From Pseudomonas mandelii (GTDB taxonomy: Bacteria; Pseudomonadota; Gammaproteobacteria; Pseudomonadales; Pseudomonadaceae), in the NCBI RefSeq assembly GCF_024138395.1, contig NZ_JAMYDU010000001.1, positions 186,001 to 250,000 on the forward strand: a stretch of 64,000 nucleotides of DNA, read 5' to 3'. The position numbers and the translations under genes were made by a program. This document shows positions 11,205 to 53,855 of the stretch, one piece after another (position 1 is the stretch's first letter; each line of letters begins with the position of its first letter). The notes under the pieces are model-generated. The model saw nothing but the letters and a program-made list of their open reading frames with translations, was not told the DNA's origin and searched no databases.

Positions 11205-11318
11205 AAAAAAAAGACCCGGCAAAAAGCCGGGTCAAAAACCGTGATTAGCCTGATGAGGAGATAGTCCAGGAGACCGACCTAAGGTCCCTTGGGCCATCGA
11301 CTGATCTCGCGACCAGTT
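11205..11318 (-). ncRNA. prrF: PrrF-type iron-responsive small RNA
   Basis: About 114 bases on the minus strand. The 5' end reads AACTGGTCGCGAGATCAG and the central segment CTCCTCATCAGGCTAATCAC; from memory these match the conserved PrrF start and target-pairing core. It ends in a hairpin GACCCGGC-TTTTT-GCCGGGTC followed by eight T. A sigma-70 promoter with an embedded Fur box lies directly upstream. By family knowledge PrrF represses iron-using proteins such as SodB and TCA enzymes when iron is scarce. Pseudomonads usually have two copies; only one is seen here. Confidence 0.92.
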
Positions 11319-11320
11319 GA

Positions 11321-11352
11321 TGCAATAATAATCATTATCATTTGCAAGTCAA
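11321..11352 (-). promoter_or_regulatory. prrF promoter with Fur box
   Basis: On the minus strand TTGACT (11352-11347), a 16-base spacer, TATTAT (11330-11325), then a start near 11318. A Fur-box match at 11321-11339 (15 of 19 to GATAATGATAATCATTATC by my count) covers the -10 region, so Fur with iron would block transcription. Confidence 0.85.
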
Positions 11353-17114: not shown

Positions 17115-18278
17115 TTAGCGGGTTTCGTTGAACAGTTCGCGACCGATCAGCATGCGACGGATCTCACTGGTGCCGGCGCCGATTTCGTACAGCTTGGCAT
17201 CGCGCAGCAGACGACCAGCGGGGAATTCGTTGATGTAGCCGTTGCCGCCGAGAATCTGGATCGCGTCGAGGGCCATGCGGGTCGCGCATTCGGCGCTGTA
17301 GAGGATGACTCCGGCGGCGTCCTTGCGGGCGGTTTCGCCGCGCTCGCAGGCCAGGGCCACTGCATAAAGGTAGGCGCGGCTGGCGTTGAGTTGGGTGTAC
17401 ATATCGGCGACTTTGCCCTGGATCAGCTGGAATTCGCCGATGCTCTGGCCGAACTGTTTGCGGTCGTGGATGTACGGAACGATCAGGTCCATGCAGGCCT
17501 GCATGATTCCGGTTGGGCCACCGGAAAGTACCACGCGCTCGTAGTCGAGGCCGCTCATCAGCACTTTCACACCGCCGTTGAGCACGCCGAGGATGTTTTC
17601 TTCCGGCACTTCGACGTCATCAAAAAACAGCTCGCAGGTGTTCGAACCGCGCATGCCGAGCTTGTCGAATTTGTTGCTGCGGCTGAAGCCTTTCCAGTCG
17701 CGCTCGACGATGAAGGCGGTGATGCCGTGCGGGCCTTTTTCAAGATCGGTCTTGGCGTAGATCACGTAAGTGTTGGCGTCGGGGCCGTTGGTGATCCAGG
17801 TTTTGCTGCCGTTGAGCACGTAGTGATCGCCGCGTTTATCGGCACGCAGTTTCATCGACACCACATCGGAACCGGCATTCGGTTCGCTCATGGCCAGGGC
17901 ACCGATGTGCTCGCCACTGATCAGCTTCGGCAGGTATTTGCTTTTCTGTTCGTGAGTGCCGTTGCGGTTGATCTGGTTGACGCAGAGGTTGGAATGGGCG
18001 CCGTAAGACAAAGCGACCGAGGCCGAACCACGGCTGATTTCTTCCATGGCGACGACGTGCGCCAAGTAGCCAAGGCCAGCACCGCCGTACTCTTCCGGCA
18101 CGGTGATACCCAGCAAGCCCATGTCGCCGAATTTGCGCCACAGGTCGGCCGGGAACAGGTTGTCGATGTCGATCTGAGCAGCGCGCGGGGCGATCTCCTT
18201 GGCGACGAAGGACTGAACCTGATCGCGCAGCATGTCGATGGTTTCACCGAGGGCAAAGTTCAGGGATGGGTAGCTCAT
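17115..18278 (-). CDS. liuA: Isovaleryl-CoA dehydrogenase
   Basis: A 387-residue acyl-CoA dehydrogenase. FAD-binding segments include [19 protein letters not shown], and the C-terminal part has [12 protein letters not shown] and [19 protein letters not shown]. The probable catalytic base is the Glu in [12 protein letters not shown], the position characteristic of isovaleryl-CoA dehydrogenases. First gene of the minus-strand liu run; two palindromes TTACGTTAACGT(A/C)A lie upstream and match the site before liuR, so LiuR control is expected. It passes electrons to ETF. Confidence 0.95.
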
Positions 18279-18332
18279 GGGGCACCTTTTGGCTTTTTTG
18301 TAGGGTGGGGAGGGCTGATTCGGCTCTCACCT

Positions 18333-18390
18333 TTACGTTAACGTAAGCCTGTGAAGAATGGCTGTCAATCACCCTTTACGTTAACGTCAA
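18333..18390. promoter_or_regulatory. Two LiuR-type operators between liuA and the acyl-CoA synthetase
   Basis: TTACGTTAACGTAA (18333-18346, perfect palindrome) and TTTACGTTAACGTCAA (18375-18390), with GTTAAC centres 43 bases apart. A close relative, TTGACGTTTACGTCAA, lies before liuR. One site probably serves each divergent promoter. Confidence 0.75.
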
Positions 18391-18526: not shown

Positions 18527-20230
18527 ATGGATCAAGCCAGTGCAAGCCCGCAGCGCAGCTATACCCGTGGTTCCCAGGACAAAGCCTTGCTGGCGATGAC
18601 CATCGGTCAGGCGTTTGATAACACGGTCGCGCAATACCCGAACGGGGAGGCGCTGGTCGTGCGCCATCAACAGCTGCGCTACACCTGGCAGCAGCTGTCA
18701 GAGGCCGTTGACCTGCACGCCAGAGCATTTTTGGCGCTGGGCTTGCAGACTGGTGACCGGCTCGGCATCTGGGCACCGAATTGTGCTCAGTGGTGCATCA
18801 GTCAGTTCGCCAGCGCGAAAATCGGCGTGATCCTGGTCAACATCAATCCGGCTTACCGCAGTTCCGAACTCGAATACGTGTTGAAACAGTCCGGTTGCCA
18901 ATGGCTGGTCTGTGCCGGGGCGTTCAAGACTTCCGACTATCACGGCATACTGCAAGGATTGGTACCGGAATTGGCGGAGCAATCCATCGGCCAGTTGCAG
19001 AGCGAACGCCTGCCGGAACTTCGCGGGGTGATCAGCCTGGACGCGCAGCCGCCATCGGGTTTCCTGCCGTGGTCGCAGCTGACTGATCTGGCGGCCAGGG
19101 TGTCGGTCGAGCAACTGCGTGAACGTCAGGACAGTCTGCATTTCGATCAGGCGGTGAACATTCAGTACACCTCCGGCACCACCGGTTTCCCCAAGGGCGC
19201 GACCCTCAGCCACTACAACATTCTCAACAACGGTTACATGGTCGGCGAAAGCCTCGGACTGACGGCCAATGATCGGTTGGTGATTCCGGTGCCGCTGTAT
19301 CACTGCTTCGGCATGGTTATGGGCAACCTCGGCTGTGTCACCCACGCCAGCACCATGATTTACCCCAACGACGCCTTCGATCCATTGCTGACGCTGAGCA
19401 CCGTCGCCGAAGAAAAAGCCACCGCGCTTTACGGTGTGCCGACCATGTTCATCGCCATGCTCGATCAGCCCAAGCGCGCCGAGTTTGATTTGTCGAGCCT
19501 GCGCACCGGGATCATGGCCGGGGCGACCTGCCCGATCGAGGTGATGCGCCGGGTTATCAACGAAATGCACATGAGCGAAGTGCAGATTGCCTACGGCATG
19601 ACGGAGACCAGCCCCGTGTCTTTGCAGACCGGTCCGTCAGACGAGCTGGAATTGCGCGTCACCACCGTTGGCCGAACCCAGCCGCAACTGGAAAGCAAAA
19701 TCATCGACGAGGCGGGCAAACTGGTACCGCGCGGCACCATCGGTGAGCTGTGTACGCGAGGCTACAGCGTGATGCTCGGCTACTGGAATAACCCGCAAGG
19801 CACCGCCGAGGCTATCGATGAGGCGGGCTGGATGCACACCGGCGATCTGGCGAGCATGAACGACGAAGGCTACGTGTGCATCGCCGGGCGTAACAAGGAC
19901 ATGATCATCCGCGGCGGTGAGAATGTTTACCCAAGGGAGCTGGAAGAGTTCTTCTTCACCCACCCGGCGGTCGCCGACGTGCAGGTGATCGGCATTCCTT
20001 GCACCCGTTATGGCGAAGAGATCGTTGCCTGGATCAAATTCCACCCCGGCCACCGCGCCACCGAGCAGGAACTGCAAACCTGGTGCAAGGAGCGCATCGC
20101 ACACTTCAAGACGCCGCGTTACTTCAAGTTCGTCGAGGAGTTTCCGATGACGGTGACGGGGAAGATCCAGAAGTTTCGGATGCGTGAGATCAGCATCGAG
20201 GAGTTGCGCATCAACAAGGCTAATGAATAA
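18527..20230 (+). CDS. AMP-binding acyl-CoA synthetase
   Basis: A 567-residue ANL-superfamily ligase. The P-loop is [12 protein letters not shown] (about residues 212-223); the adenylate-binding YGMTETSP, the hinge [16 protein letters not shown] and the C-terminal catalytic Lys region [11 protein letters not shown] all follow. It activates a carboxylic acid to its CoA ester, probably a branched or medium-chain acid such as isovalerate given the linkage with liuABCD and shared operators. The ATG at 18527 has only a weak purine-rich site upstream. Substrate is inferred from context. Confidence 0.88.
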
Positions 20231-20231
20231 C

Positions 20232-20324
20232 CCTGTGGGAGCGGGCTTGCCCGCGATGGCGTCAGACCAGTCGACATCAATGTTGAATGTTCCGGCCTCA
20301 TCGCGGGCAAGCCCGCTCCCACAG
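20232..20324. repeat. REP-type inverted pair
   Basis: Two full 'tgtgggagcgggcttgcccgcg' arms in opposite orientation directly after the acyl-CoA synthetase stop. Confidence 0.9.
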
Positions 20325-20355
20325 GAGACCTGGAAACCCAAACGCCAGAAAGCAC

Positions 20356-20383
20356 AAAGGGGAGCCGAAGCTCCCCTTTAATT
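20356..20383. terminator. Hairpin terminator shared by the acyl-CoA synthetase and the sRNA
   Basis: Stem AAAGGGGAGC (20356-20365), loop CGAA, GCTCCCCTTT (20370-20379). On the plus strand it is followed by a T-rich tail. On the minus strand it marks the 3' end of the CrcY-type RNA, with only a short T-run, so read-through on that side is possible. Confidence 0.75.
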
Positions 20384-20727
20384 TTGTCGTACGTGCTCTT
20401 TTTTTATTATTGAGGGGCGGTCTGTTGTTGTTTTTGGCAACCGTGGCCCTTTACCGCTGTTTTTGTCGATCCCCATCCGGGATCAAGAGCAAACGTATTT
20501 TTTTGAGCGCTGATCTACTTTTTCGCCAAGCGATCCAACCAGTTCGGGAGCTACCTGAAGGTAGTTTTATTGTTCTCTGCCCGGTTGCGGGTTACTTCGA
20601 AAAGCACCCTGAAAAGCACATCCTCTCCAAAAAAATCTGTTAGCTGCGTCTCTGCCGTGTTGTTCTTGTTATGTCAGAGTCGTTACGTCTTATTTTTATT
20701 GGTTTGCAGTTTTTATTCTTGTTATGC
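20356..20727 (-). ncRNA. crcY: CrcZ/CrcY-type catabolite-repression sRNA
   Basis: About 370 bases on the minus strand, AT-rich compared with its neighbours. On that strand I count six A-rich Hfq/Crc-type motifs: AACAAGAATAAAAAC (~20709-20723), CCAATAAAAATAAG (~20689-20702), AACAAGAACAACAC (~20656-20669), GAACAATAAAAC (~20564-20575), CAAAAACAACAACAG (~20422-20436) and CAATAATAAAAAAAG (~20398-20412). It has a sigma-54 promoter and distal inverted half-sites, and ends at the hairpin at 20356-20379. By family knowledge such RNAs titrate Hfq/Crc and relieve catabolite repression. Location beside the HMG-CoA lyase gene recalls CrcY of P. putida; the alternative name is crcX. Confidence 0.85.
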
Positions 20728-20736
20728 CATAGAGAT

Positions 20737-20752
20737 AGCAGAAGCCGTGCCA
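20737..20752 (-). promoter_or_regulatory. Sigma-54 promoter of the CrcY-type sRNA
   Basis: On the minus strand TGGCACG-GCTT-CTGCT, one mismatch from the -24/-12 consensus TGGCACG-N4-TTGCW. It places the transcript start near 20725-20728, just before the first A-rich motif. Confidence 0.85.
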
Positions 20753-20833
20753 ACTTTTAAAAACCTTTTAAAATCAACGGTTTGAGTTTTTTGTAGGAAT
20801 TTTCATCCGAGCCAAACCTGACAATTTGTTTCC

Positions 20834-20876
20834 GTGTTACTCGCTTCCGCCCACGTTTCTGCACACGCGGTAACAC
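20834..20876. promoter_or_regulatory. Probable CbrB activator site
   Basis: Inverted half-sites GTGTTAC (20834-20840) and GTAACAC (20870-20876), about 110-150 bases upstream of the sRNA start, a normal distance for a sigma-54 enhancer. CbrB is known to drive crcZ/crcY through TGTTAC/GTAACA-type sites. Confidence 0.65.
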
Positions 20877-20894
20877 CCGGACACATCCACACTG

Positions 20895-21794
20895 TCACTG
20901 CGCGCTGCGGGCCTTGGCCACGCGCGAACCGGTAGGGCGCCCCAGCACCGCGCAAATCTGTTGGCCGGCCCGAATCAAGGCGTCCAGGTCGATTCCGGTC
21001 TCGATGCCCAGGCCGTTGAGCAGGTAAACCACGTCTTCGGTCGCGACATTTCCGCTGGCGCCCTTGGCGTACGGGCAGCCGCCGAGGCCGGCGATGGAGC
21101 TGTCAAACACCGCGATGCCTTCCAGCAGGCTGGCGTAGATGTTGGCCATGGCTTGGCCATAGGTATCGTGAAAGTGCCCGGCGAGTTTTTCACGTGGCAC
21201 ATCGGCCGACACCACTTCGAACATCTTGCGGGTCGCGCCGGCGGTGCCGGTGCCGATGGTGTCTCCCAGCGAAACCTCGTAACAGCCCATTGCATAGAGC
21301 TCACGAGCAACCCGGGCGACTTGTGCAGGTGCGATGTCACCTTCATAAGGGCAGCCCAGCACGCAGGACACGTAACCGCGCACGCTGACGCCGTGTTGTT
21401 TGGCGGCGTCCATGATCGGTACGAAGCGCTCCAGGCTCTCGCTGATCGAGCAATTGATGTTGCGCCGGGAAAACGATTCGGACGCTGCGGCGAATACGGC
21501 GACTTCCTTGACCCCGGCGGCGATGGCGTCTTCAAAGCCCCGCAGGTTGGGGGCGAGGGCGCCGTAGGTTACGCCGGGCTTGCGCTGGATCTGCGCGAAA
21601 ACCTCGGCGGAGCCGGCCATTTGCGGCACCCATTTGGGCGAGACGAAACTGCCGACTTCTATATAGCCCAGGCCTGCGGCAGACAGTGCATCGACCAGTT
21701 GCACCTTGTCGGCAACGCTGATGGGCTGGGCTTCGTTTTGCAGACCGTCGCGGGGGCCGACTTCGACCAGGCGTACGTGGGTGGGTAGGGGCAT
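20895..21794 (-). CDS. liuE: Hydroxymethylglutaryl-CoA lyase
   Basis: A 299-residue TIM-barrel lyase that cleaves HMG-CoA to acetyl-CoA and acetoacetate, the last step of leucine degradation. Motifs: [10 protein letters not shown] near the N-terminus (metal and catalytic Arg-Asp), [12 protein letters not shown], and the catalytic-Cys loop [14 protein letters not shown]. The start MPLPTHV at 21794 is chosen over upstream codons that run into a REP element. It lies 42 bases plus a REP after liuR on the same strand and is separated from liuABCD by the acyl-CoA synthetase and the sRNA. Confidence 0.95.
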
Positions 21795-21835: not shown

Positions 21836-21928
21836 CTGTAGGAGCTGAGCTTGCTCGCGAAAGCGTCAGGTCAGTCGACATCAATGTTGAAGGACATACC
21901 GCTTTCGCGAGCAAGCTCAGCTCCTACA
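21836..21928. repeat. REP-type inverted pair between liuR and liuE
   Basis: Two 'tgtaggagctgagcttgctcgcg' arms in opposite orientation. The last bases overlap the liuR stop codon, so this element defines the 3' end of liuR. Confidence 0.9.
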
Positions 21929-22322
21929 CGAGCTGCTGGCTCTTGATCGTCTGTTCCAGCGCCTGAGTACAGCGCTCTTCAGCCGTGTCGAGTTCCAGTT
22001 TCATCTGTTCGATATCCAACAGCTGCTGTTCGAGTTGTTCCCGACGTTCGGCGATTTTCGCCAGCATGCTGTGCAGTTGCTTGGTGTTACCGCTGGAGGG
22101 GTCGTAGAGTTCGATCAGCTCGCGGCATTCGGCCAGGGAAAAACCAATGCGCTTGCCCCGCAGGATCAGCTTAAGGCTGACCTTGTCACGGGGCGAATAA
22201 ATGCGTTCCTGACCGCGACGCTCGGGGCTGAGCAGGCCTTGCTCTTCATAGAAGCGAATGGCCCGGGTGGTGATGTCGAGCTCGCGGGCGAGGTCGGAAA
22301 TGCTATAGGTCTGGCTGCTCAT
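21924..22322 (-). CDS. liuR: MerR-family regulator of leucine/isovalerate degradation
   Basis: A 132-residue MerR-type regulator. Helix-turn-helix and wing: YSISDLARELDITTRAIRFYEEQGLL, followed by RRGQERIYSPRDKVSLKLIL and a C-terminal coiled coil (about residues 85-125) that ends in a Cys-containing tail. It precedes liuE on the same strand. A 16-base palindrome upstream and similar palindromes before liuA point to an autoregulated repressor/activator of the liu genes. Confidence 0.9.
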   Translation of the reverse strand: MSSQTYSISDLARELDITTRAIRFYEEQGLLSPERRGQERIYSPRDKVSLKLILRGKRIGFSLAECRELIELYDPSSGNTKQLHSMLAKIAERREQLEQQLLDIEQMKLELDTAEERCTQALEQTIKSQQLV

Positions 22323-22364: not shown

Positions 22365-22380
22365 TTGACGTTTACGTCAA
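22365..22380. promoter_or_regulatory. LiuR-type operator upstream of liuR
   Basis: TTGACGTTTACGTCAA (22365-22380), a near-perfect palindrome 43 bases before the liuR start and closely related to the two sites at 18333-18390. Confidence 0.75.
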
Positions 22381-22518: not shown

Positions 22519-23448
22519 CTACACCTTATCCAGCTTCTTCTCATGCGCCGTGACCTGCTGACACAACTCGATCATCTGCTCACGCATCCAGCGGTTGGCC
22601 GGGTCCTGGTCGGTGCTTTCGTGCCAGTAGAGGTGGGTTTCCACCGGCGGAACTTCTTTGACCGGCAGGTTCACCGAGTACAAGTCATGGCGACGGGCGA
22701 AGCGTTCCGGCACGGTCATGACCATGTCGGTCTGCTGCAGCACCTGTGACGCCATCAGGTAATGCTGGGAGCGCAGCGCGATCTTGCGCTGGATGCCCAT
22801 TTTGCCCAGGGCCAGGTCGACATAACCCAGACCGCTGCGCCGGCTGGAAATATGGATGTGGGTCAGGGACAGATAATCGTCGAGGGTGAATTTGTCTTTG
22901 CCCGCCAACGGATGGCCCTTGCGCATGGCGCACACGTAACGGTCCTCCATCAACTTGACGTGACGCACCTGCGGGTCAGTGTTGAGCGGCGCATCCACGG
23001 CGAAATCGAGACGACCGGCGGCCAATTCCTTGGTGGTCTCGCGACGTTTGGACAGGAAGCTTTCGATGATCACCGTCGGCGCCAGGCGTCGCAGGCGCTG
23101 GAACAGCGGCGGCAGAATCACCGCTTCAGTGAGGTCAGTCATGCTGATGCGGTAGGTCTTGACCGCCTGCAACGGATTGAAAATACGACTTTCCTGCACC
23201 GACACCCGCAGCAAAGAGAGGGCGTTACGCACCGGGCCGATGATGTTTTGCGCCATCGGCGTGGGCACCATGCCTTGGGCGGTGCGCACGAAAAGCGGAT
23301 CGTTGAAGGTCTCGCGCAGGCGGGCTAGAGCGTTTGAGACCGCTGGTTGAGTAATGCCGACAATCTGCCCGGCGCGAGTCAGGTTGGCTTCGGTATAGAT
23401 CGCGTCGAAGACGATGAAAAGGTTGAGGTCGACCTTGCTCAGATTCAT
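22519..23448 (-). CDS. LysR-family transcriptional regulator
   Basis: A 309-residue LysR-type regulator. The N-terminal helix-turn-helix covers ANLTRAGQIVGITQPAVSNA with LARLRETFNDPLFVR, and an effector domain follows. It is divergent from an acyl-CoA dehydrogenase gene across a 164-base AT-richer region, the classic layout for LysR control of the adjacent gene. The effector is probably an acyl-CoA or acid, inferred from the neighbour only. Confidence 0.88.
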   Translation of the reverse strand: MNLSKVDLNLFIVFDAIYTEANLTRAGQIVGITQPAVSNALARLRETFNDPLFVRTAQGMVPTPMAQNIIGPVRNALSLLRVSVQESRIFNPLQAVKTYRISMTDLTEAVILPPLFQRLRRLAPTVIIESFLSKRRETTKELAAGRLDFAVDAPLNTDPQVRHVKLMEDRYVCAMRKGHPLAGKDKFTLDDYLSLTHIHISSRRSGLGYVDLALGKMGIQRKIALRSQHYLMASQVLQQTDMVMTVPERFARRHDLYSVNLPVKEVPPVETHLYWHESTDQDPANRWMREQMIELCQQVTAHEKKLDKV

Positions 23449-23612
23449 TGCGCTGCGCTCTCTGTTCTTGTTTTAGGAAGGTAGCTCGATCAGTCGATCA
23501 TATATCGGTGATGAATGTTAATACACGCCGAGAATAGGCTAGGTAAATTATCAACGCTGTTCTAGCATCGATTGCATGACCTGAACAACCTCCCTTTAGA
23601 AGGTAGCTGCCC

Positions 23613-52159: not shown

Positions 52160-52474
52160 TCAGGTCAGCGCCGCCAGTTGTTGAACCGTCTCCGGAAAGC
52201 GCTCAACCAGCCGGATCAGCGTTGTCGCCTGAGCATTGGGTTTCGCCCGCCCTTGTTCCCAGTTCTCCAGCGTCCGGGTGTTGGTGCGCAAGTACATCGC
52301 AAACACCGGCCGGGAGAGATTCAGTTGCTGGCGGATGCCGACCACTTCCTCTGCCGTAATCGGCGCCAGTTTGGCCAGTTTTACTTTGTGCGTACGTAGA
52401 GTGATTTTACCTTGGCGCTCATCGGCCAAGGCTTCAAACCCCTCTACCAGCTCGGAAAAAATGTCACGTTTCAT
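52160..52474 (-). CDS. higA: HigA-type antitoxin with C-terminal helix-turn-helix
   Basis: A 104-residue XRE-type antitoxin. The N-terminal part (MKRDIFSELVEGFEALADER) is the family's toxin-contacting region and the C-terminal half is a helix-turn-helix (LSRPVFAMYLRTNTRTLENW). It overlaps the toxin gene by 11 bases and lies downstream of it, the toxin-first order usual for higBA/NadS-type pairs. Confidence 0.85.
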   Translation of the reverse strand: MKRDIFSELVEGFEALADERQGKITLRTHKVKLAKLAPITAEEVVGIRQQLNLSRPVFAMYLRTNTRTLENWEQGRAKPNAQATTLIRLVERFPETVQQLAALT

Positions 52475-52814
52475 CGCTCGTTCTCGCTTTGATTTCTTGA
52501 TAAAGCATTTCTTTAAGCAGTTTTTTCTGTTGTGGCGTCAGATCGTCCTGCTCGTTCTTGCCATACAAGGTAAAGAGCCAGAACTGGTCGAAACCGGACC
52601 ACCAGTAATAAATCACCCTCAGCCCACCGCGCTTGCCCTTGTTTCGCCGCTCATCCACCACTCGAATTTTGCGCAGACCTCCGGTGCCTTCGACGACATC
52701 TCCCGCTTCCGGGTTTTGCAGCAGCTCCTGCTGGAACCGGTGAAACAGATCATCATCCAGGTAGTCACTTCGATGCTTTTGAAATACGGGTAATTCGATA
52801 AAAAGAGCGTCCAT
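52464..52814 (-). CDS. higB: HigB-type RelE/ParE-superfamily toxin
   Basis: A 116-residue toxin of the RelE/HigB2 type; the conserved LRKIRVVDERRNKGKRGG and LRVIYYWW segments carry the basic residues used in mRNA cleavage. Start MDALFIELP at 52814 is chosen; the longer frame opens further upstream without a ribosome site. It is the first gene of the pair with the antitoxin. Confidence 0.85.
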   Translation of the reverse strand: MDALFIELPVFQKHRSDYLDDDLFHRFQQELLQNPEAGDVVEGTGGLRKIRVVDERRNKGKRGGLRVIYYWWSGFDQFWLFTLYGKNEQDDLTPQQKKLLKEMLYQEIKARTSDET

Positions 52815-53115
52815 GTTCTGTACGTTACCTGCGTATATTTCTATCACAAGAATCGAATAGGTCAAGGCTTCTGTTCCTGCCCAATTCGGTCAAGTCGTTA
52901 CGTTAAAGTCGAAGGCAGGATCGGGATGTAGGACGCGGCTGATTCATCCGCGAGGCGATTCTGGATATCGGGGAGGAGAGGGCCGGTTAAACCAAAATTG
53001 CTAAATTTGCGTACCTGGCCATGGGGCGGCGGTGAGCAGCTTTATCGGCTCGGTCATGGCCGTTGAACGATCAGCCGACCGAATGGGTCACGGTGGTGAT
53101 GTTCGAGGTCATTTC

Positions 53116-53304: not shown

Positions 53305-53570
53305 GGTTCGCGATCGCTCTTGATAGCTGATCTTCGAATTTAACGGCAAATGCCTCCTGCGGGATGTCAGCTATTGCCCACCGCCTTGCAGGTATCTTCC
53401 TGTAAGTGGAAGGGCGATGAAGAGTAAAAAATCACAGCCTGCGGACAGCTCCTACACAGTGCGTATTTCAATTCTGAATGTTTAAAGTTGTGTGGGAAAT
53501 ACAGAACCTTCCCACAATGTTTTCAGGTTGTCCGTCGGACGTCCGCTCTCTAGCCTATGTTCGTCGCTGC

Positions 53571-53855
53571 CAATTCAGCGATCGGGATTAGAACCCCGGA
53601 ACCCCCAATTCAAAAGCCGATACCGAATCCCTACTGGCCAATGCCAGCGAGTCATTGTCCTCGGCTACGGTCATGCTCTGTGACTTCGCCGCTCTGCTGG
53701 AAGGCACGCATCGCAAGACCCTGTTGGGTATTGCGCAAGTGGTCATGTTGGGAGAGTTGGCGGTGAATCAGGCGTTGGATAACGTTGAGCCGGCTGTCGC
53801 CACGACGGATCGCAGTCAACTAAACCAGCCCCCGCAAATTCGGCCAGTCAGTTAA
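53571..53855 (+). pseudogene. Remnant of a DUF6124-like gene with in-frame stop
   Basis: The reading frame encodes PNSKADTESLLANASESLSS and, further on, ALLEGTHRKTLLGIAQVVML, which matches the C-terminal block of DUF6124-like proteins (compare SSEEALVHASDLL in the intact gene at 11.4-11.8 kb). A TAG at 53589-53591 interrupts the frame and no good start with a ribosome site is seen upstream. The remaining region 53350-53570 has nothing I can identify. Confidence 0.6.

Follow-up and report, generated by a model that had tools for sequence, protein, structure and literature searches.

A CrcY-type RNA gene behind liuR and liuE in Pseudomonas mandelii: promoter architecture and a likely second supply

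The gap behind the hydroxymethylglutaryl-CoA lyase gene liuE of Pseudomonas mandelii carries a CrcY-type RNA gene of the CrcZ family, which very probably is controlled by CbrB, IHF and sigma-54, sequesters Hfq/Crc and likely receives additional transcripts from the promoter of the regulator gene liuR. The gene lies in a stretch of 64,000 nucleotides (assembly GCF_024138395.1, contig NZ_JAMYDU010000001.1, positions 186,001 to 250,000), referred to as the window, whose numbering is used throughout. In the proposed mechanism, CbrB, IHF and sigma-54 RNA polymerase would switch crcY on once good carbon sources are exhausted, and the RNA would sequester the translational repressor Hfq/Crc on six A-rich motifs. 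A second supply would arise from transcription that starts at the liuR promoter, passes through liuE into crcY without meeting a terminator and is processed to the form termed CrcY*. The liuR promoter carries a conserved palindrome common to liuA, the predicted LiuR operator, and part of the CrcY pool may thus respond to leucine/isovalerate breakdown and not only to CbrB. The RNA itself is confirmed by sequence comparison as an ordinary CrcY in an already published place, that of P. putida mvaB-crcY, and was to be expected there; the interest lies in its conserved coupling to the liu regulator and in a series of promoter spacings, both read from sequence.

The CrcY RNA gene and its place in the family

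An earlier note on the window had described a CrcY-type RNA on the minus strand with six A-rich motifs and a terminal hairpin, and had placed its 5' end at 20727. The search against the Rfam CrcZ family proposed there (RF01675) returns a match to minus-strand positions 20725-20324 at 373.7 bits (curated cut-off 95, E 1.4e-104) which covers the full length of the model (positions 1-398 of 398). The transcript is predicted to run from 20725, instead of 20727, to 20355, a length of 371 nt, and to end at a hairpin that is indeed present at 20380-20355. The RNA gene and its elements are the following:

20355..20725, minus strand: CrcY RNA gene (RF01675; the Rfam match runs on to 20324)
20710..20723, minus strand: A-rich Hfq/Crc motif 1, a AANAANAA cluster (predicted unpaired 0.96)
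20690..20700, minus strand: A-rich Hfq/Crc motif 2 (predicted unpaired 0.92)
20660..20670, minus strand: A-rich Hfq/Crc motif 3 (predicted unpaired 0.99)
20567..20574, minus strand: A-rich Hfq/Crc motif 4 (predicted unpaired 0.98)
20425..20435, minus strand: A-rich Hfq/Crc motif 5 (predicted unpaired 0.94)
20401..20411, minus strand: A-rich Hfq/Crc motif 6 (predicted unpaired 0.98)
20355..20380, minus strand: terminator hairpin, terminator-like on both strands and also facing the convergent acyl-CoA synthetase gene

The six AANAANAA clusters compare with a mean of 1.39 in shuffled transcripts, none of which reached six in 2000 shuffles, and folding prediction leaves them single-stranded (mean unpaired 0.96 vs 0.39 outside the motifs), so that the RNA offers several motifs predicted to be accessible to Hfq/Crc. 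Exactly six clusters are also found at 143 of 159 CrcY loci and at 35 of 40 CrcZ loci. By analogy with the family, the RNA would bind Hfq/Crc. A terminator-like hairpin follows the RNA at 150 of the 157 CrcY loci with enough sequence. A long inverted repeat lies behind crcY at 20232-20325; like that at 21842-21923 in the liuR-liuE gap, we take it to be of the REP type. RNA matches below cut-off that overlap 20228-20411, mostly to microRNA families, sit on or beside this repeat and were rejected as RNA genes.

The host genome (6.3 Mb, 80 contigs), in which genes for Hfq and RpoN were also found, contains two CrcZ-family copies. The second, a cbrB-side copy such as the earlier note had suggested looking for, lies at C45:311426-311819 (locus L002) behind a CbrB-type gene; this upstream gene encodes a sigma-54-activator response regulator which, by context, is CbrB. 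The window's copy belongs to the liuE/mvaB-linked CrcY subgroup and is distinct from this cbrB-linked CrcZ. In a tree of 103 RNA copies (27 of 164 CrcY, 40 of 40 CrcZ and 36 of 45 other copies), the liuE-linked (27) and cbrB-linked (40) copies are split by a branch with support 98, while copies at other genomic places fall on both sides. Rfam search, second copy, RNA phylogeny and the place of crcY in P. putida, where it appears as PP3540b in the CbrB ChIP-seq list (PMC6296734), therefore agree on the identity proposed in the earlier note.

The comparison extends to 164 CrcY loci, of which 34 were collected via RF01675 and 130 via the promoter pattern (among the matches listed); figures on promoter conservation rest on the former. 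Some loci represent one genome met twice in two collections (e.g. L062 and L163), which leaves 153 distinct promoters, and L148 was excluded from the CrcY loci for want of an RNA match. In the locus tree, which holds 141 of the 164 loci with short or identical ones left out, the nearest named relative is Pseudomonas sp. GM79 (97% identity); the host probably belongs to the fluorescens group. CrcZ-family RNA was detected in 394 of 398 genomes of the bacterial family (391 above cut-off), and 15 of the 16 same-genus genomes with at least three matches have one directly behind liuE. One genome (G009; L096, L097, L098) contains four copies, with two on one strand at a distance of about 6 kb.

Elsewhere in the window, the iron-responsive sRNA PrrF (RF00444, 158.7 bits) lies at 11205-11352 on the minus strand, about 9 kb from crcY. 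By reading, two adjacent minus-strand ORFs at 52160-52865 resemble a toxin-antitoxin pair, with a toxin of RelE/HigB type (133 aa) and an antitoxin with a helix-turn-helix (104 aa). Between this pair and ORFs resembling nuo genes, a plus-strand match at 53550-53602 to c4-a1b1 (RF03163, 52.2 bits, above cut-off) represents targets of C4 antisense RNA.

The crcY promoter and the spacing of CbrB subsites

Upstream of the RNA, the earlier note had seen a sigma-54 promoter in the right place, inverted half-sites about 110-150 bases upstream and, taken together, a full sigma-54/CbrB control region. The elements found on the minus strand are:

20737..20752, minus strand: sigma-54 -24/-12 promoter, TGGCACGGCTTCTGCT; box in 164 of 164 CrcY loci
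20772..20784, minus strand: IHF-consensus site (pattern match)
20827..20832, minus strand: putative CbrB subsite R2 (GAAACA), about four helical turns from F1, assigned from spacing
20835..20840, minus strand: CbrB subsite R' (GTAACA), in 34 of 34 RF01675-selected loci
20870..20875, minus strand: CbrB subsite F1 (TGTTAC), in 34 of 34 RF01675-selected loci

The sigma-54 box at 20752-20737 stands at the right distance from the RNA and is the sole exact match to TGGCACGGCTTCTGCT in the window; taken alone it is weak, as 18 of 100 shuffled windows have an exact match. The GTGTTAC...GTAACACGGAAACA array at 20876-20827 had no match in 100 shuffled windows, and its half-sites are centred at about -147 and -112 from 20725, where the earlier note had put them. 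F1 (TGTTAC), R' (GTAACAC) and R2 (GRAACA) each occur in all 34 loci not chosen by promoter. The published CbrB site consensus reads TGTTAC-N12-14-GTAACA-N15-19-GTAACA (PMC8871633). Its F1-R2 distance (33-39 bp between the subsites) is kept in the window, with an exact F1, an R2 that agrees in five of six bases and 37 bp between them. No GTAACA-like hexamer was read 12-14 bp after F1, the position of subsite R1; the nearest candidate is GAAACG, 10 bp after F1 with four of six bases, and four CrcY loci carry an extra, R1-like GTAACA at 10 bp behind F1. The word "full" was thus slightly too strong: the elements are present and conserved, but R1 is not recognisable. R1 is a feature of the CbrB site consensus and not of the RNA family, and its substitution in P. 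putida crcY is reported to leave expression unaffected (PMC6296734). The invariance of R' (20835-20840) in the 34 unbiased loci is odd beside the P. putida result, where R' substitution likewise brought no change of expression (PMC6296734).

The IHF site, absent from the earlier note's list, is counted by position and conservation only, because the window holds three consensus matches against 0.8 expected. The IHF consensus is found in 115 of 153 distinct CrcY promoters (1.3 expected from shuffles), but among the 34 RF01675-selected loci only 19 have it. As judged from other members of the family, crcY would depend on CbrB.

The distance between the centres of F1 and R2 falls into separate classes. 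Across the 164 CrcY loci it measures 32-33 bp (38 loci), 42-44 bp (124) or 54 bp (2), with none between, which corresponds to about three, four and five helical turns. The gap between F1 and R' shows the same pattern in the 153 distinct promoters (18-19 bp in 36, 28-30 bp in 115 and 40 bp in 2, with no values between) and in the 34 unbiased loci (19 bp in 3, 28-30 bp in 29 and 40 bp in 2). When the gap separating the sites was left free (11-41 bp), the search gave matches in 241 of 398 genus genomes, and the reversed control gave none among the matches listed. CrcZ promoters, which have another internal layout, show F1-R2 distances of 41-45 bp in those 39 of 40 that match at all three subsites. 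The CbrB subsites have already been placed on one helix face (PMC6296734), and natural variants that differ by whole turns fit this placement, which is suggestive and falls short of proof. The classes require at least five changes on the 141-locus tree, three by starred branches; because independent events are therefore few, the spacing was rejected as statistical proof of helical phasing, for which it is only weak evidence. No CbrB dimer was seen in vitro (PMC8871633); the whole-turn steps in half-site spacing may serve as a natural series for how CbrB assembles on DNA.

Likely coupling of crcY to liuR and liuE

In the window, crcY is preceded by liuR and liuE and faces an acyl-CoA synthetase gene (here called fad), which is convergent with crcY and divergent from liuA:

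22365..22380, no strand assigned: predicted LiuR operator in the liuR promoter, overlapping a TTGACG -35-like element
21924..22322, minus strand: liuR-type MerR regulator gene (PF13411 and PF09278; named LiuR by synteny)
21842..21923, minus strand: long REP-like hairpin in the liuR-liuE gap, with no U-tract
20895..21794, minus strand: liuE (mvaB), hydroxymethylglutaryl-CoA lyase (NF004283, 493.9 bits)
18527..20230, plus strand: fad, acyl-CoA synthetase (NF009233, 957.3 bits)
18375..18390, no strand assigned: predicted LiuR operator in the liuA/acyl-CoA synthetase gap, from the palindrome search
18332..18347, no strand assigned: second predicted LiuR operator in the same divergent region, one mismatch
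17115..18278, minus strand: liuA-type acyl-CoA (isovaleryl-CoA) dehydrogenase gene (acyl-CoA dehydrogenase Pfam domains; named by synteny)

The liuR-type gene had no NCBIfam equivalog above cut-off. LiuR is described as belonging to the MerR family and repressing the use of branched-chain amino acids (PMC3223726), and its activity in P. aeruginosa is said to be antagonised when leucine is present (PMC8871633). With at most one mismatch, the window has three copies of the 16-bp palindrome TTKACGTNNACGTMAA (0.01 expected), one at liuR and two between liuA and fad. In the whole genome of 6.3 Mb, exact copies are confined to two places within this cluster, the liuR and liuA/fad promoters; the reversed control of the genome-wide search matched once per strand. 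When one mismatch is allowed, the palindrome lies upstream of liuR in all 111 CrcY loci with sequence there (107 distinct sequences) and upstream of liuA in 68 of 68, in contrast to liuE (0 of 151), CrcZ stretches (0 of 40) and stretches around other copies (1 of 45). The palindrome at liuR, which overlaps a conserved TTGACG, begins 57-61 bp ahead of the liuR start in at least 100 loci. A common operator at liuR and at liu catabolic genes, as a LiuR regulon would show, is thus found, and we infer that the palindrome is the LiuR operator.

The order liuR-liuE-crcY is kept across relatives, with 6-70 bp between the last aligned base of liuE and F1, while the genes downstream of crcY vary. Among the 164 loci, 44 have both fad and liuA, 56 have fad but showed no liuA, 23 have liuA without fad, and 41 showed neither gene; many of the loci in which a gene was not seen end too early to tell. 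The window represents the type with fad and liuA; in syringae-like genomes liuA follows directly, and neither gene was seen in six putida-group loci. In a wider set of 65 chosen genomes, 61 have liuE, with a CrcZ-family match directly behind it in 15 (one of these, in G324, a fragment). Of the 46 with liuE and no RNA behind it, 15 were examined: liuB, (liuC) and liuD precede liuE in all 15, and behind it none of the sought liu genes and no CrcZ-family match were found. The clade with crcY therefore also has liuE moved behind liuR. Since the arrangement may have a single origin, this amounts to one association and not many; liuE-linked copies require three changes on the RNA tree, only one of them forced by starred branches.

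Whether transcripts from liuR can reach crcY depends on the sequence between the genes. In a scan allowing long loops, terminator-like hairpins were found in the liuE-crcY gap of 6 of 164 loci, compared with 5 in shuffled sequence, and in the cbrB-crcZ gap of 36 of 40 loci, compared with 0. A scan with shorter loops gave 18 of 164 (15 shuffled) for liuE-crcY and 10 of 40 for cbrB-crcZ, where it misses the large-loop cbrB terminator. The 129-nt liuR-liuE gap folds at -62.4 kcal/mol (z -8.6), and according to this model its hairpin could weaken or block read-through. In P. putida, the processed CrcY* presumably comes from a PP3539-mvaB-crcY transcript, PP3539 being the LiuR homologue, and the upstream promoters of that transcript are called constitutive (PMC6292655). 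In P. aeruginosa, two terminators behind liuR may end transcription, and a sigma-54 promoter possibly present in the liuR promoter region (PMC8871633) would make the two inputs into CrcY harder to separate; no such promoter was found at the window's liuR with the pattern used. The accessible parts of the literature that pair crcY with mvaB, PP3540 or LiuR nowhere state that CrcY is under the control of LiuR or leucine.

The specific prediction that follows is a read-through supply of CrcY that responds to leucine and is independent of CbrB. It appears likely because liuR-liuE-crcY is kept together, all 111 liuR promoters carry the palindrome and terminator-like hairpins between liuE and crcY are about as rare as in shuffled sequence. 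It is opposed by the constitutive nature ascribed to the P. putida promoters, by the strong liuR-liuE hairpin of this genome, by the terminators behind liuR and the possible sigma-54 promoter of liuR in P. aeruginosa, and by the lack of AANAANAA at the starts of the window's liu genes. The link between carbon-state signalling and leucine use, a guess in the earlier note, thereby gains support from the palindrome at liuR and liuA and from the P. putida co-transcript. We are evenly divided over the plainest alternative, in which this is an ordinary CrcY that stands behind liuR-liuE by historical accident and only the CbrB/sigma-54 promoter matters. CrcY acts in trans and needs no particular neighbourhood, the arrangement may have arisen once, so that its persistence does not stand for many independent events, and the window's liu genes lack AANAANAA at their starts. 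An accident is harder to reconcile with the continued linkage of liuR-liuE-crcY beside differing downstream neighbours, with terminators between liuE and crcY at chance level, and with the contrast between the P. putida co-transcript and A. vinelandii, where crcY lies between convergent genes, has no processed form and is suppressed without RpoN (PMC6292655).

Supply from the liuR promoter can be taken further, to a reading that we offer tentatively and lean somewhat against: crcY would be the third cistron of a LiuR-controlled operon, in which the breakdown of leucine or isovalerate lifts LiuR, and CrcY* accumulates without CbrB and, by titration of Hfq/Crc, relieves carbon catabolite repression throughout the cell. 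This wiring would have arisen when liuE left the end of liuABCDE for its place behind liuR, and would have persisted in the fluorescens, putida and syringae groups. A pathway-specific repressor would then feed a global anti-repressor RNA, which would explain the CrcY reported outside CbrB control (CrcY* in P. putida, and the cbrB mutant of P. ogarae F113) and may be relevant to the retention of both CrcZ and CrcY in many pseudomonads.

It is improbable that CrcY made independently of CbrB is due to a different regulator at the crcY promoter, for instance ANR. The suggestion stems from P. ogarae F113, in which a cbrB mutant keeps crcY expression on roots, ANR or NarXL were proposed by the authors, and an ANR box is mentioned in the crcY promoter (PMC12552145). 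However, a full ANR box (TTGAT-N4-ATCAA) occurs in 0 of 153 distinct CrcY promoters between -160 and -20, and the best match within this range in the window has three mismatches; the box was rejected as a further promoter input. Hardly credible is the notion that the region holds no independent RNA gene but a small protein gene or just the untranslated 3' end of the liuR-liuE mRNA: it does follow liuE directly without a terminator and is overlapped by a 118-aa plus-strand ORF (20287-20643, the only one of at least 90 aa listed across the RNA gene), but it has its own conserved sigma-54 promoter and enhancer and a full-length Rfam match, and a Pfam search with the ORF found no match.

Alongside the supply of CrcY, a direct effect of CrcY on liu translation was considered. 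LiuR and liuABC are seemingly repressed by Crc in P. aeruginosa (PMC6235884). Between -60 and +30 of the starts of the window's liuR, liuE, liuA, liuB and fad there is no AANAANAA, so that direct control of liu translation by CrcY is not supported in this genome, and direct feedback on liu mRNAs in this strain is rejected for now. In relatives, AANAANAA is found at the start of liuA in 38 of 68, of liuE in 8 of 151, of fad in 0 of 46 and of liuR in 0 of 115. Unlike the liu genes, a gene of the LysR family at 22519-23448 is preceded by a AACAAGAA motif of Hfq/Crc type, 24 bases ahead of its start (23449-23472, minus strand).

Comparison with known CrcY, CrcZ and CrcX loci

The locus resembles crcY of P. 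putida KT2440 in its RNA family and its upstream genes, a LiuR homologue and mvaB (PMC6296734, PMC6292655), as well as in subsite F1 and an extra R' at about -112 (PMC6296734). It differs from P. putida-group loci on the other side of the RNA: here crcY faces the convergent acyl-CoA synthetase gene, followed by liuABCD, whereas in those loci, among which KT2440 itself is not included, neither fad nor liuA is seen in the 1-7 kb examined downstream.

With the cbrB-linked CrcZ, represented in this genome by L002, CrcY shares the RNA family, the mostly six A-rich clusters (35 of 40 CrcZ loci), a promoter of CbrB/sigma-54 type and an F1-R2 centre spacing that in CrcZ is mostly 42 bp. CrcZ promoters differ in having R1, mostly 14-15 bp after F1, while CrcY has R' beside R2 and lacks the upstream terminator that CrcZ has in the cbrB terminator. 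In the examples read (including L002), R2 lies in the loop of the terminator-like hairpin behind cbrB (found at 36 of 40 loci), and activator binding and termination there therefore use the same DNA.

In the RNA tree, the third copies of syringae-like genomes group with CrcY, whose promoter type they share, but they occupy another genomic place; they are likely CrcX of the P. syringae group, a name that we infer.
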